Source: a virus
Direction: 5' to 3' (one strand)
IMG/VR virus record: IMGVR_UViG_3300038696_000641
Coordinates: 1-54,629 of that record
Length of the DNA stretch: 54,629 bases
Numbering within the stretch: the stretch's first letter is position 1; the number at the start of each line of letters is the position of its first letter. The position numbers and the translations under genes are program-made. The notes beneath the pieces were generated by a model that was not told the DNA's origin, ran no database searches, and saw nothing but the letters and a program-made list of their open reading frames with translations. Positions 1,625 to 50,750 of the stretch are shown piece by piece.

Positions 1625-2710
1625 TCACCTTTCACCCCTGATCCTCTTTCGATCTTTGATGAGGGGCGGCGGCACAAACCCGACTCCGCCCAGCACCTTG
1701 CCCCTGAGATTGTAGGTGTCCGCATGGCGCGCGTGCCCGACCCACGACATGATCACCGGGTCGATCTCATCCCAAGTTATCAATCCGCGATGGTACTGCG
1801 CCGCCATGCGCCTCATCTTCCGCTTCATCCTGTTGATGCTGTCTTTTCGAAGCGCCCTGTGCGTCGGCCAAATCCGATAGCCAAGGAAGTCCAAGGCGCG
1901 CCCACCGTCACCTATGGGGAAAACCTGCGTTTTGGAGTTGGTGCGGAGGCCAAGCTCGGCCCAGAGGAAGTCCTCGATCGTGCGGCGGATTTGATGCAGG
2001 TGGAACTTGTCGTGGTGAATGATCACAAAATCATCCATGTATCGCGCATACCGCGTCTCACGCAGCGTGTGTTTAACGAAGTGGTCCAGCTCGTGCAGGT
2101 AGATGTTGGCAAACATCTGGGAAGACAGATTGCCAATTGGGATGCCACGCGGGGTCAGTGCGTCGTGGTCCGCCGAGCTGTCAATTATGCTGTCGATCAG
2201 CCAGAGGGTTTCCTTGCATGCGATCTTTTTCCGGATCATGCGCTTGAGCGCATCGTGACAGATCGAGGGAAAATATTTAGAAATGTCAGCCTTGAGCGCA
2301 TAGACCGCACCATGCTTGCGCTTTACCTCGCGGATGTACCTCTGGACCGTATCGACACCCTTGTGGGCACCCTTGCCTTTCCTGCAGGCGAAGCTCTGGT
2401 CGATGAACTGCGCCTCGAATATCGGCTCAATTACGATCGTTAGCGCGTGCTGAACGACACGATCCTTAAGCGGGAGTGATGCAATCTCGCGGCGCTTTGG
2501 CTCGAATATAAAGAACCGATGATACGGGCCTGTCCGATATGTTTTATGGATCAAGCTCTGGTGTATCTCGATCAGGTTGGGCTCAAGGTTGGCGCGAAAG
2601 GCGATAACGTCACGCTGGCGCGTCCGGCCCTTGGCGGTCTTCGCCCAAGCATCGATCAGCGTCTGCCATTCGATGATCTGGGGCCAAAGCGTGTTGAAGG
2701 TCTTAGCCAT
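1625..2710 (-). CDS. DGR-type reverse transcriptase
   Basis: This 361-residue protein is a retroelement reverse transcriptase. The catalytic motif YMDD is at residues 224-227. The preceding motif reads IGNLSSQ (192-198), the (I/V/L)GxxxSQ form typical of diversity-generating retroelements, not the QGxxxSP form of group II introns. No maturase or endonuclease domain is present, as usual for this family. It should copy RNA from the template repeat at 2873-2992 with errors at adenines, and the cDNA replaces the variable repeat at 3419-3538. Gene order (target, Avd, TR, RT) matches Bordetella phage BPP-1. The ATG at 2710 has a GGAA-type ribosome site. Confidence 0.97.
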   Translation of the reverse strand: MAKTFNTLWPQIIEWQTLIDAWAKTAKGRTRQRDVIAFRANLEPNLIEIHQSLIHKTYRTGPYHRFFIFEPKRREIASLPLKDRVVQHALTIVIEPIFEAQFIDQSFACRKGKGAHKGVDTVQRYIREVKRKHGAVYALKADISKYFPSICHDALKRMIRKKIACKETLWLIDSIIDSSADHDALTPRGIPIGNLSSQMFANIYLHELDHFVKHTLRETRYARYMDDFVIIHHDKFHLHQIRRTIEDFLWAELGLRTNSKTQVFPIGDGGRALDFLGYRIWPTHRALRKDSINRMKRKMRRMAAQYHRGLITWDEIDPVIMSWVGHARHADTYNLRGKVLGGVGFVPPPLIKDRKRIRGER

Positions 2711-2872
2711 AATTCCGCACCGGAGTGGCGGCCGGAGTGAGGGGTCGCTGCAAGCAGCTACTGCGACACCCCGGCCTGTTCATGTTTTTCGGCACATGGC
2801 CGAGGATTGCAGGTCCTTTCGAGGGAGCTCTGGACCCGGCCCCATAGGGCTTGGCCTTCTGGCGTTCCCCGG

Positions 2873-2992
2873 AAGCGGGGCGAAAGCCGATGTTCGTGTT
2901 CGCGTTCGACTGGGCATTGTTCAAGTTCAGGGCGAAGACCCCGGCCCTCGAGCCATTGTTCCAGTTGCCACCGCGGATCGGCAGACGCTCAT
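2873..2992 (-). repeat. DGR template repeat (TR)
   Basis: These 120 bases match the variable repeat at 3419-3538 except at 17 positions. At every one the plus strand of TR has T, which is A on the functional minus strand. TR has 25 such adenines; 17 differ and 8 are unchanged. Many are in AAC or AAT codons, the usual design that lets mutation reach many amino acids without making stops. The frame is open through TR but it probably acts as RNA. Its upper edge overlaps the last bases of the Avd gene. Confidence 0.97.
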
Positions 2993-3339
2993 GCATGGCC
3001 CGCATCCCTTACCAGCGACTTGAACCAGCCGCCGATCATGCGCCCCACCTCATCCATGTGGCGGGACCAAATTTCATACTTCTTCAGGTCAATGTAGCGA
3101 AGGGCGAATGCCGTCCTGACTTGGCTGCGCAGCAGGTCAAGTTCTGCGTCCAGATCCTGCATTGTGGTTTTCTTGTGGTATCGCTTGTTCGTGATGATAA
3201 TCAGTCGAAGCACCCCCCACATCGCGTTGCGGATTTCAGCAGCAAGAACATGCCGCTCGAATTTAGGAAACTGCCGCAGCGCAACGTAGCCGTAGGCGAT
3301 CATCTCCTCGCACTTCTGCCTGATCTTCAAGTCTTCCAC
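2989..3339 (-). CDS. avd: Avd-like DGR accessory protein
   Basis: This 116-residue, mostly helical basic protein lies between the target gene and the template repeat, where Avd is encoded in BPP-1-type retroelements. Avd forms a barrel of four-helix bundles that binds the reverse transcriptase and template RNA. The FPKFERHVLAAEIR segment (about residues 24-37) is typical of this family. The start is GTG at 3339 with AAGAGG about seven bases upstream. The stop codon falls at the edge of TR. Confidence 0.88.
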   Translation of the reverse strand: MEDLKIRQKCEEMIAYGYVALRQFPKFERHVLAAEIRNAMWGVLRLIIITNKRYHKKTTMQDLDAELDLLRSQVRTAFALRYIDLKKYEIWSRHMDEVGRMIGGWFKSLVRDAGHA

Positions 3340-3361
3340 GCGCTGCCTCTTTTGGAGTTGT

Positions 3362-3386
3362 AGGGCCCGCGCTATCGCGCGGACCT
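3362..3386. other. Hairpin or cruciform just downstream of the DGR variable repeat
   Basis: A perfect 6-bp inverted repeat (CCGCGC, loop TATC, GCGCGG) at 3367-3382 is extended by further pairs after one mismatch. It lies about 33 bases past the 3' end of VR and 22 past the target stop codon. In BPP-1 and other DGR phages a short hairpin downstream of VR promotes retrohoming. No T-run follows on the minus strand, so a simple terminator is less likely. Confidence 0.6.
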
Positions 3387-3407
3387 CAGATTACAGGTGG
3401 TCAGATG

Positions 3408-4445
3408 TCAGATTACGAAAGCGGGGCGAAAGCCGAAGAACGAGCGCGCGCTCGACTGGGCATTGAACAAGGACAGGGCGAAGACCCCGGCCCTCGAGCC
3501 ATAGGACCAGCGGCCACCGCGGACCGGCAGACGCTCATCACTTAGGTTGATGTAGAAGCCATCACTCTCAATCGGTGCGCCGGGCTGCATCAGGCCGAGG
3601 GCCTTGAGCCGATGGATCGCCGTCTCCGAGGTCCCGTGCGCAACCATGCTGGAGAGCGACGCGCCCGACCCGCACACCAGCGTTCCGTCCGCCGTGCCCG
3701 AGGTGGCATATTTGACGGCCCCCACGGTGCCGGGATCAACCAATGTGCCATCCGAAGCGAGGATGGCCTGCCACGGCCCTGCCGCACTCAGGTCAGTTGC
3801 AGAAAGAGCCGCGTCGTTATTTGGGATGATCTGGATTTCGCCATCAACGATCCGCATCCCCGGCGACCATTCCCAGACGTTTCCGTTCAAGTTCTGGATG
3901 CCAAAGGGTGTGGCTGGGTGGTTCCATGATACCGGGCCTGAGCCTGCACGAATTGTCGTGTGGCCCGATCCGCCCGAGGATGGGTTGCCGCTATCGTTGA
4001 CCCCAAATTCATCGAATGCGTTGTATGCACGGCCGTTGTTGTTGTTGCCGCGAGGGAAGCGGAAGGCGGCGCGGCATTGAAGGGCGATGGCCGCGTACAT
4101 GGCGTTGGTGGCTACGCAGAAGCCGGGGCCGGTGTTGCGCGCCAGCGTGATCGCCTGATCGTGATTGATGGTTGCGCGAGGCACGAGGCCTGCTTGGCTG
4201 ACCATTTCGCCATTGACCTCGGCGGCTTGGTGCACGCCTATCAGGATTTCATCCTTTTCCACGCCACCAACAATGAAGGCGGGGTGCGCCCCTGTGCCGA
4301 AGCCCGCTCCGAGGCTATCGAGCGTGAACTTGCGCAGGCGGTAAAAATAGCTTGGCTGACCCTTGGCGGTGAAGCGCACAGTCAACTGGCCGTTGGACAT
4401 GGTCTCGATCTGATTGCGCAGGGCGGTTTGTATTGCAATGCTCAT
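3408..4445 (-). CDS. DGR-diversified tail-tip protein with C-type-lectin (FGE-like) fold
   Basis: This 345-residue protein is the retroelement's target. Its C-terminal half has the formylglycine-generating-enzyme-like C-type-lectin signature GNVWEW (residues 188-193) and ends GFRPAFVI. The variable repeat encodes roughly residues 303-342. Eleven codons differ from the template: 308, 312, 314, 315, 325, 327, 332 and 334-337, mostly from Asn. The invariant core GSRAGVFAL lies between them. The N-terminal part probably attaches it to the tail fibre, because the gene overlaps the 109-residue gene upstream by four bases (ATGA) in the fibre operon. By analogy with Mtd of BPP-1 it should bind host receptors. 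Confidence 0.93.
   Translation of the reverse strand: MSIAIQTALRNQIETMSNGQLTVRFTAKGQPSYFYRLRKFTLDSLGAGFGTGAHPAFIVGGVEKDEILIGVHQAAEVNGEMVSQAGLVPRATINHDQAITLARNTGPGFCVATNAMYAAIALQCRAAFRFPRGNNNNGRAYNAFDEFGVNDSGNPSSGGSGHTTIRAGSGPVSWNHPATPFGIQNLNGNVWEWSPGMRIVDGEIQIIPNNDAALSATDLSAAGPWQAILASDGTLVDPGTVGAVKYATSGTADGTLVCGSGASLSSMVAHGTSETAIHRLKALGLMQPGAPIESDGFYINLSDERLPVRGGRWSYGSRAGVFALSLFNAQSSARSFFGFRPAFVI
3419..3538 (-). repeat. DGR variable repeat (VR)
   Basis: This is the partner of the template repeat, offset by 546 bases, at the extreme 3' end of the target gene. It has 17 substitutions, all opposite A in TR, all changing amino acids and none creating a stop. The A-free segment at its 3' end (3419-3436) is identical to TR and then diverges, as expected where retrohoming starts (IMH versus IMH*). 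Confidence 0.96.
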
Positions 4446-6298: not shown

Positions 6299-9200
6299 TT
6301 ATTGCGAGATCATCGGCGCCATATTCCCGCGAATGTAGTCCTCTAGGTTTGTATTGAGCAGCACACCACCCGTCATTCGCTGGCTGGTTCGCAACCGCGC
6401 CCTGTAGGATCGCATGATCGTATCATCATCAATTCTGTAGGTTGGCGGGTACTTGGCATTGAACTCCTGCATCCGGCGCAAGGCGCGCTTGCTGATAGGC
6501 TCGCCTTCGCGCATGTATCGCGTGATATCTGAGAGGATTGCTCTGCGCTCGTCCTGAATGGCAGTTTGCATGTTCATCATGCGCCGGTTGGTCTCGTACC
6601 GCTCACTGACGCGGGCCGGTGAGAAGCCAATGGCCTGCACGACTGCATCATGCGCCGAAACGTCATCGAGCAGCGGATCGCCTTTGTAGGTCGTCACGCC
6701 TTCATTGACATACCGGACAGATCGCATTTGGTCGCGGATCGCTTTGGGCACCATCAATTCTGCGCCACGCCAAACCTCGCCGTCGGCCACCAAACTGACG
6801 CCGCGCAGCATATTCAAGCCGATTGCGGGCACAGCACCGAGAAGCTGGTCAACCATGTAGTAATAGGCGTCCCTGCCCTCCAACTGCCGATTTGGGCTGC
6901 GGAACCAAAGCTCGGGCATACCAATCCGCGCGGTCATATCTGTGCCGGTAAGGGTGCCGGGTACACCTTTGAGGATCATGCCGCCTGCGCCGGTCCCGAA
7001 CAGGCCAACAATCGCGCCTTTAAGCTCTTCTTCGGCCTCGTCGGAACCGCCGTCAAAGAACATACCCGCCAAGAGCATCGTTAGGGCATAGCCCCATGTG
7101 CCGGTGATCCCCGCGTGCAGCATCATCGAGCTTGTGATACCAATCAACTGCGTACGCGCCTGCTTGCGCACCTCTGGGCTTTCCCCCTTAAATGCTTGGT
7201 GCGTATCGCGGAAAAGGCGATAGAGCATGTTCACCTGAAACTGGCGAAAGACGAAGGCCACGCGGGTCCAGTCGTCCTGCATGAAGCGCGGACGGGACCA
7301 GTTTTCATAGTTAAAGTGCGTATCCCACGTCAGATCACCAGCTTTCTTCACGGCGGCTTCCTGATCCATTCCCGAATTTTTCGCCATCCGGTAAGCGGCA
7401 AGGAATGTCACCTCACGGTTCAGGCGCTCGGCATGGTGGAACAGGAAAGAAATTGGCCGCATGACTTTTTCGCGCACGGGTGAGTATTGCACGCCGCCGT
7501 CTTGTATTCCGGCAAGATCGTGCGACTCGCTTTTGTCCAGCGCGCCAGACAAATAGGCTTGCTGCAATGCTGCCCGTTCATCGTCTTTCAATCGGCCACT
7601 TGTCAGCGCGCCTCGGCTCCACTCTGCGTCCCCTTTGGAAAGACCCGCTGTGAAGTCTGCCAGCGCACCAGTCAGTGCCTTTGATGCCTTGGCGACCGTC
7701 GCACCTTTGATGCCGGCAACCAAGATCGGGATGCCGACAACGGTTGTCTGGGTCAGGTTTACCACCGCCGCCGCCGGTGTCAGGCCGAGATACCAGACAA
7801 ACGCGCCAGACGTCGCCCAGGCGCTCCACTGCGCGCCGGTGGGGTTCATCGACCAATCATGGCGTTTTTGCATTTCATTGGCGATTGCACCGGCCCGCGT
7901 TGGGTCAGGCGCGTTCTTCGCCTCACGCCGCGCATTTTCAACGTGCTTTGTCAGGTCCATGGCATGCCGCAAGCGTGTCAACTGGTGCGCGCCGTGGAAC
8001 ATGCGGCTACCAAACGCTTTGATCGCGTCCCTGTCGAAGCCGGGTACGCCCTTGCGGTGGATATTGGCCTTGCGGACCGAGAATGAAGGCAGGGTTTCCA
8101 GATACCTCTGGTAGATTGCATCGAGGATCTGGCCGTCCATAGCGACTTCGCCCAGTGCCTCTGCAATATCGGCCACAAAGTTGGGATCAACGAACCGGCT
8201 GACGTCATCTTCGGGCTTCATCACGCCCTTTTCGACCACAAGCCCCTGATCCTGCATCTCCGACGCAATGCGCTGCTGTGCGCCCGCCGTGGATGCCCGC
8301 TCAAAGTGAACCAGCTTGCCCTTGGCGTCCCGCGCCGCGACAAAGAATTGCCCAAAGCGCATCAGCGGGAAGTAGGGCCCGTCGATCCGGTTGCTTTCAT
8401 AGGTCAGGCGCATCTTGCGAATACGCGCGTTCCGGCTGAACTCAAGCATCTTGATATCTTGGTTGTACCGCGACCGCGCCTTCTTGCGCGCCTGCGTTGC
8501 CTCAGCGCCCGTCAGGCCGTCTTCAATGATCTGCTGCAACTCGCCTTCATACCGCGCCTTGAGGCGTGAGGATTGCAATTCCATGGCCTTGGCCACCGCA
8601 TCAACCATCGCGTTGATCAGATCTTCATCGAAAGCCCGATAGCTATCGCGCGCCTTGCGGTAGATATCCTGCATGGCCTCTGGCAACGCATTGAACTTCT
8701 GCTGCATAGACGCATGGCTGCTGCGCTTTTCTTCCACGAAATTCATATATTTGCCGGTGGTCATGTCGGCGGGCCGCTTGGGCCGCTTAAACTTCTCCGA
8801 TGGGTCCATTCCCTCAATCGTGGATTCGTGCATCAGATCGTGCAGCTTTCTGCCGTTCTCTTTGTCCTTGGCGTAGTGACCCTGCCACTCCCGCGCCAAC
8901 ACATCGGCCTCAGCGTGCATTTCCTGCCGCTCCGCCGTCATTTGCCGCATGCTCTGAACCCACTTGGCCGCAGACGGCAGGGCCTTGCCCAGATCACGGA
9001 ACAGCACTTCGCCCGGCACAAGCGCAAGCGAGTTGTTCTTATCGCTGGAAGCCATGGCGTTGGTAAGAAGGTTGCTGACGAAACTGGCCTCTTTCTTGTC
9101 CAATGCCGCATCGGTCTTTGCAGCCTTGGGCGACCACATCTTTGAGATAGACGCCATCAAGGCTGGGTTGTCTGCCGGATCAGCGTTGACCGTATCGAAC

Positions 9201-12200
9201 GTGCCCGATGGGTCTGGATCACGCCCGCCGACTTCGCCTGACCGCACCCGCTCAAAGACTGACGCCGCAGTGTTCATGCCGTTACCTGTCAGGACATTGA
9301 TGATTGCATCCAGAATGTCCTTGAGCTTCTGCATGGCACCGCGCTCCGCTGCCGTCAGGCCGGTATCACGCCCGTCCGCCCACTCGCGGTACATCTCCGC
9401 CACGATTTCCTCGATCTTTGTGGCCTCGGACTTGCCTGCATAGAACTTTTCGACCTGTGCGCGCAGCCGCTTGTTCTTGCGCGCCGCCGCAACAAGTGTG
9501 CGCCATTCCTGTTTGGTGAATGCCCCGTTTTCGCCACCAAACACGTCTTTGCTTCTCAGCGCATGAATGACCTCATGGCGCGCAATGCCCAATGGTCCAT
9601 CCGGTGCCGCCATGGACACGCCGATCACACCGTCAAGGAAGTACCCATCAAGGCTCTCATAGCCTTTCCCGAAGTTGTAGGCTTCATCGTTGAGCGTCAG
9701 CGCAATGCGGCCGCCGGTGGCTTTGCCCACTTCGCGCTCGATCTGGCGCACCGTCTTGTTGATATCGCGCTTTGCTTGTGTCGCGTCTTGGAATGAAGCG
9801 GTCGACGGCTTGGACTGTGATGCACGGAAGTTAGCGCCGCCATCATCATCGAGACGCATTTCCATTGCGTCTTTCGGTGCTGGCGCGCGATCTGGCGCGA
9901 CGGCCTGAGCAACAGCTTCAGCATCATAGATGTTCAGCACGCTCCAATTTGACGTCTGATTGCCTTCATCATCCTTTGTGGCGTTCTCTTGCGCCTCAAT
10001 GATGACAGCCTCACCGGTATCCATGTTTTCTGCTTCAAAGATAGCAATCCGGCCTGTTTTATCAGTCCCTTCAATGCGTCGCGTGCCATTAGGCGCACCC
10101 CAGTCAGATACATACGTCTGGCCAGCGTTCTTGAACTGGATGTTCTCAGTAATTGGTTGGGCTGTATCGTCAGCAATAAGATCGCGCCCTTTGTCATCGC
10201 GTGCAGCAAAGTAGTTTTCGCCAAGCGCGGCATTCTCAGACGCAAACTTGACTTCCTCGACACGCACCAGCGCAGACAGGCGGGCAAGGCGTTCTTCAGC
10301 GTCAATTACCTTTGAACGGTCTACGCCAACATCGAGCAGGCTTTGCATCTGTGGTTTCAGCTCGGCGTGCCGGTTTTGCTCCTTGCTAAAGCGATTTGCT
10401 GCGGCTTCGGCCCGCATAGCAATGTTTTCCGGCGACAGCGCGCGCAACAGCTTGTCCGACTTTCTGAAGTCTTTGGCGGTTATGGAGAAATCATCAGAAA
10501 TGGAAATTTCGTAATCTGCGTTGGGCGGCATCAGGAACGAACGATATCTTACCGCGCCAGTTTGTTGTTTGTCAGCCATCATCGCCACAGACCATCCACC
10601 GCCCATGGCGATGTTGAACCGCTTTGGTTCGGAGTATGTGTTTTCTTGAGCGTCCTTCAGAACATCGTATACTTTGCGCTCCCACCCGCCACTAGGACGG
10701 TCGGTCCAACGTGTCGGGGCAGTTGGCATTTCCGGCAGTTTTTCTTGCTCTTTGCGTGGCTTGCCCTTGTTTCGCTCTCGGATTTCGTCGGCCAGCGCCT
10801 CAAGGCGGGCCTTCTCTTCCCGATACGCGCCTGCTTGAGCGTCCCAGTCGGCCAGGTAGCTGTCAGCGCCATCACCGATCTTATCAACGGAAAAACCTGC
10901 ATAATCATCTGCACGCTCTTTCAGCACACGCTGCCTGCCATCATAGGACTTCATGAAATCCTTGGCTTCGGACAGGTTCCGCAGCTTTGAAGCAATTTCG
11001 GCGCGGGCATTATCCCGGTCTTTCTCGGCCTGCATTTTTTGGAGGAAGATTTCCTTGCCCGTCGATTGCGCCATGAACTCTGCGTATTGGTCGGCGTCAC
11101 CACCTTCTTCAACAATGGAATCGGTAGCCGCATTCATAAACGTCTCGATTGCGGATGCCTTCCGTTCGAGCACCTGCCACTGAACAACGTCAGCGGTTTG
11201 CTCAGTCGAATAGGCGATGATTTCCACTTCAAAATTGTCGGGATCGGCCTGATAGAACTCATTGCCTTGCCGAATAATGCGGCCTTCACGCTGCTCCATA
11301 TCTGATGGACGCCATGGCGCATCGATGTGGTGCAACGCCACCAGCTTCTTTTGCGCGTTTGTACCGGCCCCCATCTTCTGCGTTGATCCAAGAAGCACGC
11401 GGACACGACCTTCATTGACGGCCTCAAAGAGTGCGTTTTTCTGAATGGTGGTGTTGTAATCATGGATGAAGGCAATCTCGTCTTCTGGAACACCCTTTTC
11501 GATCAGCGCTGCGCGCATGTCGTCATAGAACGAAAAGCCGGTGTCTGCCGTGAACATGGATGCCGCGGCATCTTGTGCTGCTTCGCTTTCCATAAATTCA
11601 GTCAGGCTGTCACGCTTCCGTGTCGTCGTGTCGAGGTCATCAATTGCATTTTCGATTTCACCGAGAAGATCGCCCCATATTTCAGCGTAGGTTTTGCCTT
11701 CGCTTTGCTTCAAGCGTGCAGTCAAGTCCGAACCTTTGACGCCAAGCTTCTCATATGCGGACTTTATCACGCGCTTTGCGTCACGTTCCGCAGCCTTGGA
11801 TGGCGCGCTCATGTCGCAGAATACCATCTGCGCGCCTTTGCGCTCTTTGTTCTCTTCCCAAATGCGGAACACTTCTGCTGACGATCGGTCGACCTTCGAT
11901 CCTTCTTCGCGGCCCAGTGTTGGATCGATTGTACGGATATCAACGGACGCCTTGCGCGCGTCTGTGAGTACCCACAAGGCGTTATCGACGGACATATAAT
12001 CCTTGTTGCTCTTGTTTGCCTTGATACCGGCCATGCGCATCACAAGGTATCTGACAAACTCTGTCATTTTCGGCGTCGGTGGCGCCAGACTGATCCTGCG
12101 TGCGCCACCCTTGATTTTGGGTGTCGGGAACCGCGTTGAAACCTGCTTTGCTGGGTCTGGCTGGGCCGCGTTACGCGCCTCCATTTGCTCGGTATACATG

Positions 12201-15200
12201 CGCTCCACGTCAGGCCGCATGACGATATCGCTGAATGAGCGGTAAAGCTGGGACAGCGGGCCAAGGTTGATCATGCCGGACATGATGTTGCGCTCTTTGA
12301 GCTGCATCGATGCCGTGTATTCAAACCGGCTTTCATCCTGAATGAAGCCCGCCTTCCAAGCGTCAAAGCTGCCAATGCCCATAGACTTCAAGGATTCTGG
12401 TATCAGGTACTTCATCATCGAGTAGATTTCGACCAGTGAGTTAGAGATTGGTGTGCCTGTCAGGAAAGCGACACCGGACCCCTGTTGTTCCTGCAATGTG
12501 CGAACCTTCATCAGCATGTCAAACGCGCGCTGGCTGCCGCCAGGGGGGTTCATGCCGACAAGCCGCGAGGCAGTGGTCGTGTATTCAAGGTTCTTGAACA
12601 GGTGCGCCTCGTCAACGGCGAGATAATCAACACCCAAGTCCTTCCATCCAATGATGGAACTGTCCGCCTTTTCGGCCAGCTTGTCATTGAGCTCTTTCAG
12701 CTTGTCGGTCAGTTTATTGAGGCGTGACCCCATCTGGCCTACGCTTCTCCTGCTTTGTCCGCTGGCTCTTGCTTCCTGCATGGCGGCATTGAGCTCTTCA
12801 ATTTGCTCATTGAGATACTTGCGCGATGTGTCTGCATCATTTTCGATCTTTGTGAGCTGCGAGTGACCAATGATCACGGCATCATAGTCGCCTGTCGCGA
12901 TACGGTTGATCAGCTTCGAGCGATTGGCCGGCGCAAAGTCTTTCTCGGTTGGCACAAGAATGTTGGCCGCTGGGTAAAGCTCAAGCCATTCACGGCCCCA
13001 CTGGCCAGTCAGGTGGTTTGGAACCGCGACAACAGCTTTGCGTGTCAGGCCCATACGCTTGCGCTCCATGATCCCTGCAATAGCCGTGAACGTTTTGCCT
13101 GCGCCGACAACGTGATGAAGCAACGTCACCTTGTCTTGGATCATGCGCCATGCGCCATTCTTTTGACTGTTGCGAAGATCAATCTCTGGCGAGTTTCCGA
13201 CCATGCGCAGATAGCGCACCCCTTCATACTTGCGCTCCGTGACCACGTTCATTTTTGCATTGAAGGCATCGATAACCATGCCTGCCCGCTCAGGATTGGC
13301 ATAAGCCCATTCGGGAAACTCTTTTGACATGCGCTCGTATGCGGCGACGGCCTCTTTCGTGGCTTCTTCGTTTTTTACCCGCCTATCACCTTCGGGCGTT
13401 CTGATTGTGTCATATACGACCGGTATCTTGCCTTTGATCGCGTGCTCAAAAATACGACCTGCATCCATGCGCTCGGTCGCAAACTGCTGCCCGAACTCTG
13501 TAAGAGCACCGATCGACCCTGTTTCGACCGAAGCCATGCCAACGGTTTCCTGAATGCTCACTTTCGCGCTGGGGTAGCCCAAGGCTTGCAAGAATGATGA
13601 GAACACCTCTTTTGGTATCCACAACGACCGGATCGATGGTGTGATTTGGTCCTGTCTTTTTGCGGGCGGCATTGCTTTGTTAAGGTGTGGCACATTCTGA
13701 TACATGCCCGCGCTTTCCGCGTCCTTAATCCGCTCCGCCAAGTTTCCAGACAGATAGACCTCTGCAAGCTCATATCGCCCTGTTTTGGGGTTCTTGAAGG
13801 CCATCGGGTCTTGCCCTGCCGTCATTTCCTTTACAACGTCTTCGGTCGATTTCCCTGACAACTCTCCGATTAGGATAGGATCAACATGCCCGCGCTCTGC
13901 CATGGACACATGCAGGCCATCTGCGACGCTTTCCACGCTGTCCGGCATCTTGTGCGGGTAAATCACGCGCTTGCTCAGGATCGGCGCATCTTTGGCCGTT
14001 TCATCATTGACGCCCTTCTTTGCGGGCTTGTAGCCAATCTCCAATGCAAGCTCTGTTCCCACATCGCCCCGCAGAACAGCCTCGTTCTTTGAATTGTTGA
14101 GGTATCCATGCGCCTTTTTGAATTTGCGATACGTTTCACGCAGGGTCCGTCGTTTGCCTTCGAGGATCTGCGGCTCGGCGTCGGCGCGCTCAAGTCCGAT
14201 CAGCTCTTTGGTCTTTTGGCGTAGATCAAGCATAGCGGACAGACGTTGGAAACCATCTGAACCCAGGCGCTTCCGATTCACCTGCTTCTCATAAGTCTCA
14301 AGAGAAGACATAGCCTCCTTGGTGGGCTTTTCCGCAAAGAGAAGGTTGGACAGGTTGTCAGCCATTGCTGCTTCATACTTGGCCTTCTGGGGCATCGGCT
14401 CACTGGCCAGATCGATCAAGCCTGCATCTACGGCGGCATTCTTGGCGCGCTGTTCGATGTTGATCCGGTCCTCAAGCGAAACCTTGGAACGTGCTTTCTT
14501 GGCCGAAATTAACGCGCGGACCTCTTGCACAAGGCGGCCCTTTGCCTCGGCTTCATCCTGCCAGAACGTGTCTTGTGTGACTTCCTCAACGAATGATCCG
14601 TCTCCATCGTTCCGACCGCGTAACACCTTGCCTTTGGCGTCGAGCATCATCTTACCATCGGCAAGCGTCGATGACGTGTCCTGCGCAGTGGTTGCCGCCT
14701 CAAGCGCTTCTTCACGGCTAGGAAGGGTGGCAGTGATACTATCAATCGCCTGATCCAGCGATGCCTGCATATCGCGGCCATCATCATGCAGGGTAAATTC
14801 ACCCTTGCCATTCGGATCGCGCCCACCGGCATACATGGTCCCATCCATGGCCGGACGGCCCAGCATCATATCTGGGTTTGCCGCAAAGTAGCTGTTGATG
14901 CGCGTCCCGTTCGGGCCTTCGACGCCGGTATCGAGCCAGCTTGTGTCGCCCTCGCCTTCGCCTGCTTTGCGTTTCTGAAAAAACACAATGTCGGTTGTGA
15001 CTTGCGTGTTGGCGTTTGCCTCAAACGCTGTGTTCGGAAGGCGGATTGCGCCTAGGAAGTTAAAATCAGGCGCAATGCCGCGACGTGCATCACTGTTGGG
15101 TGTGTCGAGGAAGCGGCTTGTGACCACCATGCTCATGATCCCGCCTTCGCGCAAAAGCTGGCCAGTCTTTGCAATGATGAAGTTGTGAACCTTCATCTTG

Positions 15201-18200
15201 CCCAGATCGGGGTGCATCTTCTTGTTGCCTATTTGCTCCGCGCCAAATGGCGGGTTGCCGATAGCCACATCAAAGGTTGCGCTGCGGAATGGCGCATCCT
15301 GAAAGCCAGTACCGTCAAAGACATTGGCTTGCGGGTACAGGTTCTTTGCGATCATGCCGGTGATCGGGTCGAGCTCGGACGCATACCATTCGGTTTTGGC
15401 TGACAGGTCCGCCGGTTGCAGGCCCAAGAAATTGCCCGATCCGATTGTGGGCTCCAATGCGCGACCACCATCAAAGCCGAAGTTGCGCATGGCGCGCCAC
15501 ATCGCCTTAACCACGACACGCGACGTATAGTGCGCGTCATTGGTGGAACGCATGGCAGCAACGTACTGCTCGCCGCTCAATAGCTGTTTCAGCTCGGCCT
15601 GTGCCTTGCCCCACTGGGTGTTGGTTCCCTTGTGCTTTTCGTCAAAGAGGGTTTTCAGGCCACCCCAGCCGACCCAACGGGCAAGAACGTCTTGTTCTTC
15701 GCGCGTGGCGTAGCGGTTTTCACTTTCGAGTTGAAATACAAGGCGCAACGCCGCCATGTTGGCGGCCAGCTTTTGACCGTCAGTCCCTTCGCCCAGGGCG
15801 AAGTCGTCGGAAATTACATAGTTCGGTTGAGGCGTGCCATTGGGGGCTGATCCGGTGCTGTCAGCACTTGATCCCGGACCGTCGCCCACGCTTCCGCCCT
15901 CGTCATCGACGGCAGGCTCTCCCGCGCCGTCTTCATCATCTTCTCGGCGTCCATCGTTATCCGATCCACTGTCAGGCTGTCCGTCTCCGTCCATTCCTTG
16001 TTCGGTGACTTCGCCTGTAGGTTCTCTTTGACCGCCATCTTGATTTGTAGATTGTTCATCTGGGCCCTCATTTGCGGCCTGATCGGCCTCGCCTGCCTCT
16101 GGTGTATCCGATTCCGTGTCATTTTGCGAGATGGTTTGCTCTTCGGCCAGTGCTGCGCGCACCTCGGCCATAACAGCGGACGCATCATCCATGCCTGAGA
16201 TGTCTTCACCGGCTAGGTCCATGTTGTCGCGCACATGGTTGTAGGCCGCGCGCATGGGCTCTTGTGCCTCACGCATGGAAAGGCCGGTTGTTTCTGCGAA
16301 GTCACGCAGCATTTGGCCGAATTTCTTTGCGCCGCCTTCGATGTAAAGGGCGACAAGCTCACCGCCAAGGATGATGTATTCAGGATCAAGGCCGCTGCTG
16401 GCCTGATTGCGTACCTTTGCGGCAAGTCGTGCTTTCAACTCGGCCGCACGATCCTGCTTTTCCTGTGAAAGACCGGATAGAAGGCCGCTGGTTGCGGGTG
16501 CTGTATCCGCGATAACTGGGCTGTTTGAGGTGTTTTCTGTTTGCGTTGCCGCAGGTGCTTCCGCCCCCTGATCCGTAGCTTTCTCGCGGTCTTGCAAGAT
16601 ATCTGCACGAGCAGAATAGATCCAACCCAGCAAGTCAGGACGTGCCGTTTCGATGTAATCTGTCAGTCCGTCGAGCATGTCGGCGGGCGCGGCCTCAAGC
16701 ACGCGATACACGTCTTGAGAGCGCAGCTTATCAACGCTGTCGGCCGCAACGTTGATCAAGGTTTCATTGGTCGGCTTCGGCTCTGGCGCGGCCTTCTTCT
16801 TAAACGGGAAGTCCAGATTGCCAGAAACCGGCTTGGTGCTGTCGAAGTTGCTGTCAGACGTGCTTTCCAGCCATGCCTTGAGCTGGGCAACGCTGCCCTC
16901 GAAGAATGCGCCAATACGCTCGTCAGCGCGACCATCATTGAAAGCGCCACGATAGGCTGTCAGTGCGGCCCCGCGCGAAGGGAAGCCAACCATGATCTTG
17001 TGTTCATCAAACTTGCCGCTGTCCGCGTCCGCCTGGTCGATCCACATGACGTAATCAGCATCGGGTGCCTCGCCCATGTAGAAATCAACATGCTCGCCGT
17101 CTGCACCTTCGGTCTGCTTGAAATAGCCATAGTGCGCGGGCATGGTCACGGACCACGTTTCGCCGTCCTGATCGGTCCCGCTGCGCTCACTGCCCTTGGC
17201 GTTCTCGATAGTCAGGTTCATGCCATTCCAGATGATATGGCCCTTTTGATAGTTTCCGGCTTCTTTCTGCCCGTCCGTTGGGTTCGGGTCGGCATCAGCC
17301 GCCGCTGCATCGACATCTTCTTTGGCGGGTGGCGTGAGGGGCTGCCCAATACGCTTGCGACCGCCCCGCTCACCACGATTGGCCTGCTCTGCGGGATCAT
17401 CAAAGAGCATCGGCACACCGTCGCGGTATGTCAGGGTAGGATCGCGCTCGATCATGTCTATGAGGCTGCCAAGTTGCTCGTCACGCAGGTTTGCCGACGA
17501 TGCAATCAATGCGCCCATATCGCGCGCCAGTGTTTCCAGCTTTGCGCTGTTGATTGAGAGACGCGCTATTGCGCCATCCAGCTTGGTCACTTGCAGCTGC
17601 TTTGGTGTGACCTTCAGGACCGTCCCATACCCGGGCAACACGTCGCCTTCTTTGGCGTTGGCAAGCGCGATATTGCCAAGGCTCAAGTCGCTGCTGTCAC
17701 CAATGCCGTTTACCGGCGCATCGACGCGGGCTTTGCTTATGCCCAGCTTGCGGTTGGGGTAATCAACAGAACCAGAACTGTCCTTTACTTGATTTTTGCC
17801 AGTATCGTTATTATCTCTCTTTGTGCCGCGCCCGGGCAGCGGAGCCATGCTGCCCCATAATTCACTGAGAGTGCCTGTAAACTTTTCAGCGAGACGCGGC
17901 GCTCCTTTATCGTATGAACCAATTAACCACGCGCCTGATTGCCCATCCCAGTCAAGGCGAACACCGGCACGATCTGAGTCGCTTTCAAGCTGAATGCGAT
18001 TTTCGGTTTTGCTTGTAACTGTCATGCGTGAAATACGCCCTTGCAGGTCATCCAGAACCTCTGGGTGCCACGCAATCAACTTAGATAGCCCGTATCCATC
18101 ACTACGGCGCGTTCCGGCCTTGCCCCAAACGAGCGATATATCCCCTACATCGCGGTGATTAAGCGCGCCTGTTGCCTCACCAGTCTGCCTGCGCTCCAGC

Positions 18201-21046
18201 TCTAGTGCAGCCCCCTTCCAGTCCCCTTTATAACCAGAAATAACAGGTCCGAATGGGCCTGTTGCGTTGTCTGACGCATTAGATGCACTTGGCGTTTCTG
18301 CCGCAAATTTGTCTGCGCGGTCCTTGCGAATGAACGTCCCGCCCTGAAACGCAAAGCCGCCGGTATCGAACCCGGTAATATCGGCAGGCTTGAACCCTTT
18401 GAGGACATAGCCTTTCAGCTTCTTGCCCTTGCGGGTGGTGTATTCGACCTCGCCTGCTGCAATGGCATCGGCCACCGCCTTGCGCAGCGGGCTGGTTTCT
18501 TGATCAGCGGGAGCGGTTTCGGGCTGATCCGGCGCAACGTCTTGTTCTGGCGGCGTCTCGTTCTTGATCGGTTCTTGATCCGGCGCGGTGTCCGGCTCAA
18601 ATTGTTCATCAAGAGCCTGGCGGATTGCTGCATCAAACGATCCAAACTCCGAGTGCCCGTTCGGGGTTCCGTTTTCGTCAAGGTAAGTCAGGCGGAAGCC
18701 ACCCGGCTTTGACATATCCGGACCCGCGATTGCCCGCTGGCCTGTGCTTGAAGTAAGCCGCACCGGCTTTCCGCTGGCCGATAGTGTTTTTGCAATTTCT
18801 TCCTTACGGGCAATGCTTTCCCTCGCCTTGGCCCGCAAGTCTTGCAATTCACTTGTCGGTGTTTGTTCTTGATCCGGCGCGGCTTCTGCGACCGGTTCGG
18901 GGCTTGGCGGGGTTTGCCCGCCAGTCAGTGTCTCTTCTGGTGCTGCGGCCTCTGGATCGCCTGTAAATGCGTCTTGGGGTCTGCTGGCCTCTAGTGCGGC
19001 TACGTCAACGTCAGGCGCGTCCTGTGCCTGTTGACGGACGCCAATAAACCCGCCGCCAAAGGGCTCGACGGAATAGCCTTCGCCAAGACGGCTTTCAGCA
19101 ACCCGTTGCGTTGGGAAAATGACTGGATCGCCATTATCGTCAGTGAACATGGCTTCATCAATGCGGCTGGCTTCTTCGCTGCGCTGGCGCTCTTGTTCGC
19201 GCGCATTTTCGGCAAGCTCGGCCACGTCATCGCGCGTCTGCGAAAGCGTGCGCTGCAACGTCGCCATATAGGCGTCGTCCGGCGTCATGCCTTCGTCACG
19301 CACCATTGCGTCCACGGTATCCATGAACTCGTCAGGATCAACGCCTTGCGGGATTGGTGGCAGGTTTTCGACTGGCGCTTCTGGCGCTGGCTGTGCGTCT
19401 GGTGTTTCTGGCGCGGCCACATCTGGCTGCTTGGCAAGTGCTGGTGTGACGATCACAACGCCATTGGCAATGTCTGCCAATTCAACGTCGGCATCTGTGC
19501 CGTCCGCCCCGCGGAACTGCGCAAAGCCTGACGCTGGGTCTTCACCCAAAAATGTCGCGTCCATCGGGTCGCTGATTTCGCCCGTCTCTTGGTCAACGAG
19601 CTGGATCTGCACCGGCTGGTCTGCCCGAAACCCACCCAAAAGGGCATCAGGCGCGTCTGCGGCCACATCTGACAGCGGTGAGGGTGTTGCCGGTTGCGTT
19701 GCGTCGCCGGACGGTCCCTGCGGTGACAGCGCGTCACCGGTTGGCGTTGGTGCCCCCTGCGCCCGCTGGGAGGAGGTAGCAGGCATTGGGGGCACCGCAC
19801 CAGAACCCGACGCCGTGCCGGGAGGAACACCAACGTCGCCGGTGCCTGGTTCGTTAAGAAGGTCGATGTTTGTTTCTTGGTCATTACTGTCATCGTCGCC
19901 GTTGCGGTCATTACTGTCATCGTCGCCGTTGCGGTCATTACTGTCATCGTCGCCGTTGCGGTCACGGTATGCCTTGGCACCACCGCCGACACCGCCCAAA
20001 GCACCGCCAAGAAGGCCCGCGGCAACGCCAACTTCAATATACTCTTTCACGGCATCTTCAGTATCGAGCGGAAGGCCAGCCTGCATACGTTCGAGCATTG
20101 ACTGCCCGATTTCAGTTGGCACCTCCATCAAGACGCCTGCCCCAGCGCCCTTTCCAGCCCCAACCAGAACGCGCTTTGTAAGTATACCGCCACCTTCAGC
20201 TGCTATCTTGGCGCCGACCCCCAGGCCTGAAACGGTAATTAAGTCAGTCACAACATCTAAGGCCGCTTGAGGGACAGCGGTAAGCAGGGCGGCTCCTTCA
20301 TTGACTTGAACAGGAGTGCCGGCTTCTTCGGCCACGTCTTTCTGTCGCTCTCGGTTTTGCCCATAAAAGAACGGAAGGTTTACAGCCAGACCGCCAATGG
20401 CTGCGCCTACAGCCGTCCCGACAACTGGGACAACCGAACCAATAGCGCCACCAGCTGCTGCGCCAGCCAACGTCGAACCCATTTGTGGTACTTGCTGACC
20501 GGCCACCTCAGATGCATACCTGCCGAAAGAGCCAAGGCCATCGACGTCATCAAGTCGTGTGAACCCTCGTGACTTCTCTTGTGCTTCGGCTTCGTTTCTA
20601 TCGGCTACCTCGCGACCGTATTCCTCGACCCCATCAAGGCCAAGCATGCCGCCAACGCCCTCCACGGCAGAGCCGTAGCTTTGCTGGATCGTATCGGCCC
20701 CAACGCCAATCGCCTTGCGAAAACCACCTTCCGGCTGCGGTTCTTCTCTTGGCGTGCCATAAATCTGCGCACGAAGGTTTGTGGCATAGTCCCCGAATGC
20801 CCGCCCCTCGTCTTCCCCGAACAACTCTGAGACAATCGCATTTGGGTCTTCACCGGCTTTGAACCGTGGGCCGACTTGCTGTCCGCGCTGGCGAGCAATT
20901 GCCAAAAGCTCTTGTGGCGTCTGCGCCCCTTCAAGCTCGGCGGATGCGTAAAGCACCTCAATCGGCGTCCCTGTTTCAATGGCAATGTCTTCAAGTGCGG
21001 TTTTTGTTGAAACGGGATCAGTACCGAAGATGGGCATATCGCTCAT
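6299..21046 (-). CDS. Giant polyvalent protein: N6-adenine methyltransferase, SNF2 helicase, zincin and LPD domains
   Basis: One uninterrupted frame encodes 4,915 residues. Gly/Ala-rich helices near residues 180-360 look membrane-active. An Asp-rich repeat (about 363-390) and a long Pro/Glu/Asp linker follow. Residues about 1262-1400 resemble the pyrophosphatase-like domain of phage polyvalent proteins. A methyltransferase has ALEPTIGSGNF (1863-1873) and NPPF (1931-1934). The SNF2-type helicase has GAGKT (2648-2652), DEAH (2812-2815) and QREGRIIRQG (3252-3261). A zinc peptidase motif HEVIH is at 3824-3828, with a Glu-rich helix after it. Near 4400 a hydrophobic stretch resembles LPD38. Similar giants in Bcep22-like phages and P1 DarB are virion proteins; injection with the DNA and protection against host restriction are inferred. 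The gene fills 27% of the window. Confidence 0.92.
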   Translation of the reverse strand: MSDMPIFGTDPVSTKTALEDIAIETGTPIEVLYASAELEGAQTPQELLAIARQRGQQVGPRFKAGEDPNAIVSELFGEDEGRAFGDYATNLRAQIYGTPREEPQPEGGFRKAIGVGADTIQQSYGSAVEGVGGMLGLDGVEEYGREVADRNEAEAQEKSRGFTRLDDVDGLGSFGRYASEVAGQQVPQMGSTLAGAAAGGAIGSVVPVVGTAVGAAIGGLAVNLPFFYGQNRERQKDVAEEAGTPVQVNEGAALLTAVPQAALDVVTDLITVSGLGVGAKIAAEGGGILTKRVLVGAGKGAGAGVLMEVPTEIGQSMLERMQAGLPLDTEDAVKEYIEVGVAAGLLGGALGGVGGGAKAYRDRNGDDDSNDRNGDDDSNDRNGDDDSNDQETNIDLLNEPGTGDVGVPPGTASGSGAVPPMPATSSQRAQGAPTPTGDALSPQGPSGDATQPATPSPLSDVAADAPDALLGGFRADQPVQIQLVDQETGEISDPMDATFLGEDPASGFAQFRGADGTDADVELADIANGVVIVTPALAKQPDVAAPETPDAQPAPEAPVENLPPIPQGVDPDEFMDTVDAMVRDEGMTPDDAYMATLQRTLSQTRDDVAELAENAREQERQRSEEASRIDEAMFTDDNGDPVIFPTQRVAESRLGEGYSVEPFGGGFIGVRQQAQDAPDVDVAALEASRPQDAFTGDPEAAAPEETLTGGQTPPSPEPVAEAAPDQEQTPTSELQDLRAKARESIARKEEIAKTLSASGKPVRLTSSTGQRAIAGPDMSKPGGFRLTYLDENGTPNGHSEFGSFDAAIRQALDEQFEPDTAPDQEPIKNETPPEQDVAPDQPETAPADQETSPLRKAVADAIAAGEVEYTTRKGKKLKGYVLKGFKPADITGFDTGGFAFQGGTFIRKDRADKFAAETPSASNASDNATGPFGPVISGYKGDWKGAALELERRQTGEATGALNHRDVGDISLVWGKAGTRRSDGYGLSKLIAWHPEVLDDLQGRISRMTVTSKTENRIQLESDSDRAGVRLDWDGQSGAWLIGSYDKGAPRLAEKFTGTLSELWGSMAPLPGRGTKRDNNDTGKNQVKDSSGSVDYPNRKLGISKARVDAPVNGIGDSSDLSLGNIALANAKEGDVLPGYGTVLKVTPKQLQVTKLDGAIARLSINSAKLETLARDMGALIASSANLRDEQLGSLIDMIERDPTLTYRDGVPMLFDDPAEQANRGERGGRKRIGQPLTPPAKEDVDAAAADADPNPTDGQKEAGNYQKGHIIWNGMNLTIENAKGSERSGTDQDGETWSVTMPAHYGYFKQTEGADGEHVDFYMGEAPDADYVMWIDQADADSGKFDEHKIMVGFPSRGAALTAYRGAFNDGRADERIGAFFEGSVAQLKAWLESTSDSNFDSTKPVSGNLDFPFKKKAAPEPKPTNETLINVAADSVDKLRSQDVYRVLEAAPADMLDGLTDYIETARPDLLGWIYSARADILQDREKATDQGAEAPAATQTENTSNSPVIADTAPATSGLLSGLSQEKQDRAAELKARLAAKVRNQASSGLDPEYIILGGELVALYIEGGAKKFGQMLRDFAETTGLSMREAQEPMRAAYNHVRDNMDLAGEDISGMDDASAVMAEVRAALAEEQTISQNDTESDTPEAGEADQAANEGPDEQSTNQDGGQREPTGEVTEQGMDGDGQPDSGSDNDGRREDDEDGAGEPAVDDEGGSVGDGPGSSADSTGSAPNGTPQPNYVISDDFALGEGTDGQKLAANMAALRLVFQLESENRYATREEQDVLARWVGWGGLKTLFDEKHKGTNTQWGKAQAELKQLLSGEQYVAAMRSTNDAHYTSRVVVKAMWRAMRNFGFDGGRALEPTIGSGNFLGLQPADLSAKTEWYASELDPITGMIAKNLYPQANVFDGTGFQDAPFRSATFDVAIGNPPFGAEQIGNKKMHPDLGKMKVHNFIIAKTGQLLREGGIMSMVVTSRFLDTPNSDARRGIAPDFNFLGAIRLPNTAFEANANTQVTTDIVFFQKRKAGEGEGDTSWLDTGVEGPNGTRINSYFAANPDMMLGRPAMDGTMYAGGRDPNGKGEFTLHDDGRDMQASLDQAIDSITATLPSREEALEAATTAQDTSSTLADGKMMLDAKGKVLRGRNDGDGSFVEEVTQDTFWQDEAEAKGRLVQEVRALISAKKARSKVSLEDRINIEQRAKNAAVDAGLIDLASEPMPQKAKYEAAMADNLSNLLFAEKPTKEAMSSLETYEKQVNRKRLGSDGFQRLSAMLDLRQKTKELIGLERADAEPQILEGKRRTLRETYRKFKKAHGYLNNSKNEAVLRGDVGTELALEIGYKPAKKGVNDETAKDAPILSKRVIYPHKMPDSVESVADGLHVSMAERGHVDPILIGELSGKSTEDVVKEMTAGQDPMAFKNPKTGRYELAEVYLSGNLAERIKDAESAGMYQNVPHLNKAMPPAKRQDQITPSIRSLWIPKEVFSSFLQALGYPSAKVSIQETVGMASVETGSIGALTEFGQQFATERMDAGRIFEHAIKGKIPVVYDTIRTPEGDRRVKNEEATKEAVAAYERMSKEFPEWAYANPERAGMVIDAFNAKMNVVTERKYEGVRYLRMVGNSPEIDLRNSQKNGAWRMIQDKVTLLHHVVGAGKTFTAIAGIMERKRMGLTRKAVVAVPNHLTGQWGREWLELYPAANILVPTEKDFAPANRSKLINRIATGDYDAVIIGHSQLTKIENDADTSRKYLNEQIEELNAAMQEARASGQSRRSVGQMGSRLNKLTDKLKELNDKLAEKADSSIIGWKDLGVDYLAVDEAHLFKNLEYTTTASRLVGMNPPGGSQRAFDMLMKVRTLQEQQGSGVAFLTGTPISNSLVEIYSMMKYLIPESLKSMGIGSFDAWKAGFIQDESRFEYTASMQLKERNIMSGMINLGPLSQLYRSFSDIVMRPDVERMYTEQMEARNAAQPDPAKQVSTRFPTPKIKGGARRISLAPPTPKMTEFVRYLVMRMAGIKANKSNKDYMSVDNALWVLTDARKASVDIRTIDPTLGREEGSKVDRSSAEVFRIWEENKERKGAQMVFCDMSAPSKAAERDAKRVIKSAYEKLGVKGSDLTARLKQSEGKTYAEIWGDLLGEIENAIDDLDTTTRKRDSLTEFMESEAAQDAAASMFTADTGFSFYDDMRAALIEKGVPEDEIAFIHDYNTTIQKNALFEAVNEGRVRVLLGSTQKMGAGTNAQKKLVALHHIDAPWRPSDMEQREGRIIRQGNEFYQADPDNFEVEIIAYSTEQTADVVQWQVLERKASAIETFMNAATDSIVEEGGDADQYAEFMAQSTGKEIFLQKMQAEKDRDNARAEIASKLRNLSEAKDFMKSYDGRQRVLKERADDYAGFSVDKIGDGADSYLADWDAQAGAYREEKARLEALADEIRERNKGKPRKEQEKLPEMPTAPTRWTDRPSGGWERKVYDVLKDAQENTYSEPKRFNIAMGGGWSVAMMADKQQTGAVRYRSFLMPPNADYEISISDDFSITAKDFRKSDKLLRALSPENIAMRAEAAANRFSKEQNRHAELKPQMQSLLDVGVDRSKVIDAEERLARLSALVRVEEVKFASENAALGENYFAARDDKGRDLIADDTAQPITENIQFKNAGQTYVSDWGAPNGTRRIEGTDKTGRIAIFEAENMDTGEAVIIEAQENATKDDEGNQTSNWSVLNIYDAEAVAQAVAPDRAPAPKDAMEMRLDDDGGANFRASQSKPSTASFQDATQAKRDINKTVRQIEREVGKATGGRIALTLNDEAYNFGKGYESLDGYFLDGVIGVSMAAPDGPLGIARHEVIHALRSKDVFGGENGAFTKQEWRTLVAAARKNKRLRAQVEKFYAGKSEATKIEEIVAEMYREWADGRDTGLTAAERGAMQKLKDILDAIINVLTGNGMNTAASVFERVRSGEVGGRDPDPSGTFDTVNADPADNPALMASISKMWSPKAAKTDAALDKKEASFVSNLLTNAMASSDKNNSLALVPGEVLFRDLGKALPSAAKWVQSMRQMTAERQEMHAEADVLAREWQGHYAKDKENGRKLHDLMHESTIEGMDPSEKFKRPKRPADMTTGKYMNFVEEKRSSHASMQQKFNALPEAMQDIYRKARDSYRAFDEDLINAMVDAVAKAMELQSSRLKARYEGELQQIIEDGLTGAEATQARKKARSRYNQDIKMLEFSRNARIRKMRLTYESNRIDGPYFPLMRFGQFFVAARDAKGKLVHFERASTAGAQQRIASEMQDQGLVVEKGVMKPEDDVSRFVDPNFVADIAEALGEVAMDGQILDAIYQRYLETLPSFSVRKANIHRKGVPGFDRDAIKAFGSRMFHGAHQLTRLRHAMDLTKHVENARREAKNAPDPTRAGAIANEMQKRHDWSMNPTGAQWSAWATSGAFVWYLGLTPAAAVVNLTQTTVVGIPILVAGIKGATVAKASKALTGALADFTAGLSKGDAEWSRGALTSGRLKDDERAALQQAYLSGALDKSESHDLAGIQDGGVQYSPVREKVMRPISFLFHHAERLNREVTFLAAYRMAKNSGMDQEAAVKKAGDLTWDTHFNYENWSRPRFMQDDWTRVAFVFRQFQVNMLYRLFRDTHQAFKGESPEVRKQARTQLIGITSSMMLHAGITGTWGYALTMLLAGMFFDGGSDEAEEELKGAIVGLFGTGAGGMILKGVPGTLTGTDMTARIGMPELWFRSPNRQLEGRDAYYYMVDQLLGAVPAIGLNMLRGVSLVADGEVWRGAELMVPKAIRDQMRSVRYVNEGVTTYKGDPLLDDVSAHDAVVQAIGFSPARVSERYETNRRMMNMQTAIQDERRAILSDITRYMREGEPISKRALRRMQEFNAKYPPTYRIDDDTIMRSYRARLRTSQRMTGGVLLNTNLEDYIRGNMAPMISQ
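19879..19959 (-). repeat. Three tandem 27-bp repeats inside the giant gene
   Basis: A 27-base unit is present three times without change and then breaks off. It encodes the nine-residue unit DDDSNDRNG. The D-x-N-x-D spacing resembles calcium-binding loops of dockerin or thrombospondin type-3 repeats. Perfect identity at DNA level suggests recent expansion, so copy number may vary between isolates. Confidence 0.85.
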
Positions 21047-40648: not shown

Positions 40649-40814
40649 CGTCCTGCTCCATAGCCCTGTAAACACGGTTGGTCATTGCGCTGATGCCCGA
40701 TCTGGACAGCCCAAAGGTCTTGGCAAGCTGTTGCGTTGAAATACCCAGCGCGCGACCTTCCAAAAGGCGAAGAAGGCGCTCGTCTTCCTCTCTGGTTTTG
40801 GGCTGGATGCTCAT
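40641..40814 (-). CDS. Small helix-turn-helix DNA-binding protein
   Basis: This 57-residue protein starts MSIQPKTREEDERLLRLLEG and continues with ISTQQLAKTFGLSRSGISAM, a clear helix-turn-helix (QLAKTFGLSRSGI). It resembles sigma-factor-like or GcrA-like short DNA-binding domains. Its ATG overlaps the methyltransferase stop (ATGA). A regulator made together with a DNA methyltransferase could respond to or control methylation of the phage genome, but that is speculation. Confidence 0.7.
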   Translation of the reverse strand: MSIQPKTREEDERLLRLLEGRALGISTQQLAKTFGLSRSGISAMTNRVYRAMEQDDG

Positions 40815-48626: not shown

Positions 48627-48787
48627 TCCGCGCCGACACGGATACATGTGCCGCCCTGCGATTGGCGAACAACGCGATCTACAATGCTGCGCGCCTTGCC
48701 CGCAAAGCGGGCGATCCCCGCGCTGATGAACTCAAGGCCTTGGCTTTGAAGTCTGACGATCTTGTTGATCGGGGGGCGCAGTCATGA
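48620..48787 (+). CDS. Hypothetical helical protein, 55 residues
   Basis: The frame reads MVVRADTDTCAALRLANNAI, then helices rich in Ala, Arg and Leu. It starts seven bases before the end of the membrane-protein gene and overlaps the Rad52-like start (ATGA), so it is translationally coupled on both sides. No function is recognised. Confidence 0.6.
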   Translation: MVVRADTDTCAALRLANNAIYNAARLARKAGDPRADELKALALKSDDLVDRGAQS

Positions 48788-50284: not shown

Positions 50285-50487
50285 TGCTGACCGACAAACA
50301 GCGCCGCGTATTGGTCGATCTGTCTGATGGGGACTGGCAACAGCTGGTCCCACATCACAGCCGCTCTGTCGTGGCCTCTCTTAACCGCATGGGCTGCATC
50401 CGACCCGATCACACGCACATTCCATATGAGGAGCGGATCTGGACCATCACCCCTATTGGATTGGAATGCTTGGAGGCAACAGCATGA
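50284..50487 (+). CDS. Small winged-helix-like protein
   Basis: This 67-residue protein reads MLTDKQRRVLVDLSDGDWQQ, then RSVVASLNRMGCIRP and a short strand pair WTITPIGLECLEA. Helix, helix, wing order suggests a DNA-binding fold of the PadR or phage-regulator kind. It is coupled to the coiled-coil gene by TGATG. Confidence 0.55.
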   Translation: MLTDKQRRVLVDLSDGDWQQLVPHHSRSVVASLNRMGCIRPDHTHIPYEERIWTITPIGLECLEATA

Positions 50488-50750
50488 GCGTTTTGGATGA
50501 CATTAAATCGAACCTAGCAACGCAGTCAGAAGGCTATGCAGTCGTCAATGACGGTATATTGGTCACATCATCCGTCGATACATCTCGGTCGGGCGCTGTC
50601 CAGCTTTTTGCAGCTATTACGCATTTGCCAGAAGCCCTGCTTTTTATGGCCTTGTGCGGCAAAGATGAATGCGGTTGCTGCGAGAGGTTTCTCAAAAAAA
50701 TCAAGCCGACGGCGAAAATTGTTTCCGTGAAGGTGCAGGTGCAGCCATGA
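50484..50750 (+). CDS. Hypothetical protein, 88 residues
   Basis: The ATG at 50484 overlaps the preceding stop (ATGA), with GGAGG upstream. The protein contains a cluster CGKDECGCCERF (about residues 59-70) with four Cys that may bind metal, flanked by hydrophobic strands. No family is recognised. Confidence 0.55.
   Translation: MSVLDDIKSNLATQSEGYAVVNDGILVTSSVDTSRSGAVQLFAAITHLPEALLFMALCGKDECGCCERFLKKIKPTAKIVSVKVQVQP

Follow-up and report, generated by a model that had tools for sequence, protein, structure and literature searches.

A BPP-1-type DGR in a tailed phage and a candidate target-site signal of periodic TG units between its VR and hairpin

Homing of the diversity-generating retroelement (DGR) of Bordetella phage BPP-1 depends, downstream of the variable repeat (VR), on an IMH composed of 14 GC bases and a direction-setting 21 bp and on a GRNA-loop hairpin (Guo et al. 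2011, PMC3240598). The consensus for such hairpins is a GC-rich stem of 7-10 bp with a GRNA loop, located 4-34 bases after VR (PMC3240598). The BPP-1 spacer recruits RT-Avd and primes the cDNA (PMC12875486). Among the proteins diversified by DGRs, TaqVP (PDB 5VF4) from a Thermus aquaticus prophage has been crystallised and has an FGE-type C-type-lectin fold (PMC6328139), and activity confined to VR is common among DGRs (Roux et al. 2021, PMC8144416). Here we describe a locus in IMG/VR virus record IMGVR_UViG_3300038696_000641, the whole 54,629-nucleotide stretch of which (positions 1 to 54,629) is referred to as the window. The element is a further instance of already known DGR machinery, and the joint best explanation, which we hold with near certainty, is a complete BPP-1-type DGR in a tailed phage, with VR rewritten by adenine-mutagenic RT-Avd copying and a receiving site probably marked by a hairpin and an array. 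Its features are as follows.

1625 to 2710, minus strand: reverse transcriptase, 361 aa (RVT_1, E 3.7e-20; phrog_1423, E 5e-148; PDB 8UB7, E 3.8e-68)
2711 to 2872, minus strand: spacer between TR and RT, the 3' part of the DGR RNA, aligned in 20 relatives
2873 to 2992, minus strand: template repeat (TR), from a repeat search and alignment to VR, overlapping the avd stop codon with its first four bases
2989 to 3339, minus strand: avd, accessory variability determinant, 116 aa (bAvd PF22296, E 2.9e-31; phrog_3206 'Avd protein of DGR', E 4.5e-45)
3364 to 3385, minus strand: target-site hairpin GGTCCGCGC(GATA)GCGCGGGCC, with a 9-bp stem (one G-T pair) and a GRNA loop, 33 bases from VR
3386 to 3418, minus strand: four TG-centred units in an array (TAATCTGACATCTGACCACCTGTAATCTGA), with their TGs spaced 7-8-7 and the stop codon of the target included
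3408 to 4445, minus strand: target gene, 345 aa, by profile matches a TaqVP-related variable tail protein (predicted FGE-type C-type-lectin fold)
3419 to 3538, minus strand: VR, an ungapped 120-base match to TR with 17 differences, all opposite template adenines

Read on the minus strand, the target (4445-3408) comes first and its end holds VR; next in order are avd (3339-2989), TR (2992-2873), the spacer, and RT (2710-1625). The reverse transcriptase has both the catalytic YMDD and the DGR-type IGNLSSQ motif ([ILV]GxxxSQ), in columns conserved in the alignment, and its match in PDB 8UB7 is to a chain that we take to be the BPP-1 DGR enzyme. The accessory protein expected of a BPP-1-type DGR is present as well, with matches to bAvd PF22296 and phrog_3206. 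A Pfam search of the target assigned no family. The target matched phrog_2889 (E 6e-109) and the tail family phrog_5302 (E 1e-15), and a profile of 34 target relatives matched TaqVP over its whole length (E 2.6e-134). A C-type-lectin fold is accordingly predicted for the target through the profile match to 5VF4. The spacer is conserved among the 20 relatives, where blocks such as AAAGGA and CCTCGGC are near-invariant and compensatory changes preserve a stem (columns 19-41), features that would fit a region for RT-Avd recruitment and cDNA priming.

Virion genes, among them those for portal, terminase, and major head protein, mark the record as a phage. Several further genes of the window were noted. 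A 4,915-aa gene at 6299-21046 (minus strand) carries an LPD39 domain and one resembling inorganic pyrophosphatase, matches an Eco57I-type methylase, and includes SNF2/helicase pieces along with a weak match to the PBECR1 nuclease. At the DNA level this gene is similar to DarB-like antirestriction genes found in Erwinia and Pseudomonas phages. The protein at 40811-41983 (minus strand) matches DNA methyltransferase (phrog_116) and DNA primase (phrog_864) families, and the region 48784-51752 (plus strand) encodes a single-strand annealing protein, an exonuclease, an Orf/NinB recombination mediator, and an HNH endonuclease.

A general repeat finder without adenine preference returned the pair 2870-2992 / 3416-3538 at an offset of 546, and base-by-base comparison of TR (2873-2992) with VR (3419-3538) on the minus strand gave 120 ungapped columns containing 25 template adenines. 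Seventeen of the 25 were changed (9 to T, 4 to G, and 4 to C) and none of the 95 other bases, so that the search and the base-by-base check together reproduced exactly the counts, length, and offset of the original prediction. For all 17 mismatches to fall on 25 adenines by chance among 120 bases has a hypergeometric P of 5.7e-15. The earliest non-adenine mismatch (C to T) lies one base 3' of the 120 columns, where homology stops. With 68% of adenines changed against the 75% expected from a random base at each, we draw nothing from the gap at 25 sites. No third TR/VR copy was found within the 54.6-kb record.

Codon comparison bore out the earlier statement that the 17 changes fall within 11 codons and are non-synonymous in every one. 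It is also true, as had been claimed, that no stop arises, but this is uninformative as evidence because adenine changes cannot turn any in-frame TR codon (mostly AAC and AAT) into TAA, TAG, or TGA; stop avoidance is a design property of TR and says nothing on this particular VR. A rival account without reverse transcription or adenine mutagenesis is plain gene conversion, or else that the end of the gene was recently duplicated and then came under positive selection. Similar copies at a distance of 546 bases could recombine, and each of the 11 changed codons is non-synonymous. However, protein-level selection has no reason to favour template-adenine sites, where 17 of 17 changes lie (P 6e-15), RT and Avd adjoin the repeats, and between records of the close relative described below VR alone changes and TR never does. 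We give this account next to no chance of being right, and the pair is best read as the TR and VR of a DGR.

The original prediction further held that the element has been active, and this is supported by the completeness of its parts, by a VR that tracks its own TR, and by a close relative that varies in VR opposite adenines. RT, Avd, TR, VR, the post-VR hairpin, and the conserved spacer, which are the parts needed for activity, are all present. Tracking was scored at aligned sites where the window TR and the TR of a relative differ and neither base is an adenine. At such sites the window VR carried the base of the window TR in 10/10 cases against the relative's locus L003, 15/15 against L007, and 17/17 against L008, and pooling over related loci, which are not independent, gave 1292/1292. 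Over the 900 bases of the target gene before VR, identity was 69% to L003, 64% to L007, and 53% to L008. As VR tracks its own TR while the adjoining target has diverged, overwriting of VR by TR has taken place since these lineages split, and it has done so repeatedly in the lineage of the window.

Alternatively, the element may be a relic, with a pattern made long ago and a VR that is now frozen. The window phage is represented by a single record, in which no change within its own population is seen, and no near-identical viral contig came up in searches with patterns derived from the TR and target site of the window. Against a relic, all genes are intact and conserved, 0 of 95 non-adenine bases differ between VR and TR though the adjoining target has diverged by about 30% from its nearest relatives, and a relative with the same layout is active. 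We regard a relic as extremely unlikely; for the window copy itself, present-day activity is suggested by the relative, whose RT is 77% identical.

That relative is a single phage species represented by five IMG/VR contigs (L003, L004, L005, L006, and L075). Like the window, it has an offset of 546 and the same array and hairpin, with RT 77% and target 73% identical; it nevertheless belongs to another species, with 69% DNA identity over the target, and five VR alleles are seen in it. The check proposed with the original prediction, namely that variation should be confined to VR positions opposite adenines, was carried out on these contigs in place of window reads and holds almost wholly. Between L003 and L004, 15 differences were found in 7,869 aligned bases, and 15/15 lie in VR and opposite template adenines; over all 11,071 shared bases there are 18 differences, of which 15 are in VR. 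Across the five records, polymorphism affects 18 of the 23 adenine columns in VR compared with 2 of 97 non-adenine columns, the flanking 1,765 bases differ at 0-13 sites, and TR is identical, as transfer in one direction only would leave it in the copies of this relative. In L006 and L005 (VR at 4170-4289), VR and TR have one non-adenine difference each and are otherwise adenine-only; the non-adenine differences in the relative are T to G at column 15 and C to T at column 62. The TR/VR pairs of the relatives came from a scan that tolerates adenine mismatches, and their adenine-only pattern is thus partly by construction, a bias of which both the window's own pair and the comparison between records are free. 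No further VR beside the main pair was found in the fetched relatives. The window and this relative constitute a clean natural case of adenine-limited hypervariation between otherwise near-identical phage genomes.

The sequence after VR bears the marks of a BPP-1-type target site. The window hairpin agrees with the consensus, with a 9-bp stem and a GATA loop 33 bases after VR, and the best hairpin after VR has a GRNA loop in 66 of 85 dereplicated loci, compared with 1 of 85 for the best hairpin after TR. The distinction between IMH and IMH* is likewise visible, in that VR and TR share a GC-rich end, CGGCTTTCGCCCCGCTT, and the array then follows VR only. The interval from VR to the hairpin in the window, TCGTAATCTGACATCTGACCACCTGTAATCTGA, has TG steps of 7, 8, and 7 (P = 0.0036 in dinucleotide shuffles of the interval), and the repeated unit is (A)TCTG, with T/C variation ahead of TG.

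We found the same periodicity in the 78 usable intervals of the dereplicated loci. TG-TG spacings of 7 occurred 150 times versus 35.6 +/- 5.5 in shuffles, and spacings of 8 occurred 65 times versus 34.1 +/- 5.7. Spacings of 14 and 15 were enriched too, and all other short spacings were depleted in these 78 intervals. At least three units in register were present after VR in 60 of 78 intervals, compared with a mean of 10 and a maximum of 18 in shuffles; after TR, 1 of 78 had them. When one locus was taken per RT cluster (<50% identity), the array was present after VR in 9 of 17 and after TR in 0. The array is weak or missing in some relatives, such as L060 and L110, and it was absent from the distant DGRs checked (Bacteroides phages p00 and Versailles, Butyrivibrio phage Arawn, and methanogen virus vir215). 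Pseudomonas phage phPA-G has two VRs and weak repeats only. In this phage (VB_PaD_phPA-G, locus L244), one TR appears to serve both VRs, which end at 2111 and 2823 and sit in neighbouring genes annotated as hypothetical.

The array could instead consist of stop codons in several frames, or of a leader for avd, and have no role as a homing signal. Indeed, the stop codon of the target lies inside the first unit, and avd usually begins shortly past the hairpin. However, an A follows TG in only 48% of units, so about half are not TGA. Nd12-type phages are also relevant to this question. In these loci (L175-L209), VR lies within a tentaclin-like gene downstream of RT, avd is not adjacent, and about 300 codons of the same gene follow VR, with the array still present. 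It is made there of TCT serine codons, which account for 24 of 45 in the array versus 59 of 713 in the remainder of these genes (Fisher P 2e-13 over 13 loci, which are related, hence an optimistic P). Only codon choice counts as evidence in the nd12-type array because the amino acids there are conserved too. Given that the array persists mid-gene through skewed serine codons, with RT upstream and avd elsewhere, an array of stop codons or leader sequence was not supported, and we consider it unlikely.

Base pairing of the array with a conserved CAGA of the DGR RNA directly after TR was another candidate, since ATCTG and CAGAT are reverse complements and CAGA occurs widely after TR. In some lineages, however, the units have been altered together: ATCCG recurs in L061, and all four units of L119 read ATCCG/CCCG. 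The RNA of these loci keeps CAGA with no compensation. The pairing was therefore not supported, and we judge it very unlikely.

A homing signal remains our preferred reading of the array. We see even chances that the target of BPP-1-type DGRs is marked by a previously undescribed signal of three to four (A)TCTG units in steps of 7-8 bases, located from VR to the hairpin and not after TR, which would generalise the 21-bp IMH. No description of the array was found in open-access papers, and its novelty is accordingly provisional. The array would form part of the receiving signal used to choose VR over TR. Because neighbouring units are separated by less than a helical turn and have changed in concert in some lineages, a repeated protein surface may read the array as a single strand. 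The surface of the Avd pentamer is an example, a reader that we offer as a guess from general knowledge. The array provides a direct mutational test of how DGRs pick VR and spare TR, a question that has stood since the work on the BPP-1 21-bp IMH. Moreover, an array present after VR and missing after TR across divergent DGRs would help to locate VRs that lie far from their RT.

A working model for the element is proposed. An RNA covering the end of avd, TR, and the spacer would be reverse-transcribed by the RT-Avd complex, which would insert random bases opposite template adenines, and the resulting cDNA would replace VR in the 3'-terminal part of the tail-protein gene. The exposed surface of a receptor-binding protein would thereby change while TR stays constant. 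By analogy with known systems, from which these steps are carried over, an RNA intermediate, cDNA priming, and a role in host attachment are likely here as well. The GRNA-loop hairpin and the array of TG units 7-8 bases apart probably mark the receiving site; a DGR protein or the cDNA-homing step may read them, and it would be the array that makes VR rather than TR the recipient. The annealing protein of the phage could help the cDNA to enter VR, in line with a replication-fork model (PMC12875486).

In sum, the closest described counterpart of the window element is the BPP-1 DGR (mtd-avd-TR-brt), with which it shares gene order, adenine-specific TR/VR differences, Avd, a GRNA-loop hairpin after VR, and the 3'-terminal placement of VR in a tail-protein gene; BPP-1 brt is 40% identical to the window RT. 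The two differ in the target, which is Mtd in BPP-1 and TaqVP-like in the window, and in the hairpin, which in the window lies 33 bases past the end of TR/VR identity, unlike in BPP-1. They also differ in the array, since the four TG units of the window compare with three weaker NTG units in BPP-1 (GTG, CTG, and TTG), a shorter version that probably lies in the 21-bp element of its IMH. TaqVP resembles the window target in its whole-length profile match (E 2.6e-134) and in having VR at the C terminus (PMC6328139); nine variable amino acids are reported for TaqVP versus 11 changed codons in the window target, a protein known from sequence alone. Finally, the DGRs of Vibrio phage VP58.5 and Pseudoalteromonas phage ACA1 (VHML-type) have RTs 48-51% identical to that of the window, the same order of avd, TR, and antireceptor target, and a hairpin after VR, but they reside in different phages (ACA1 is P2-like) and have a more distant target.
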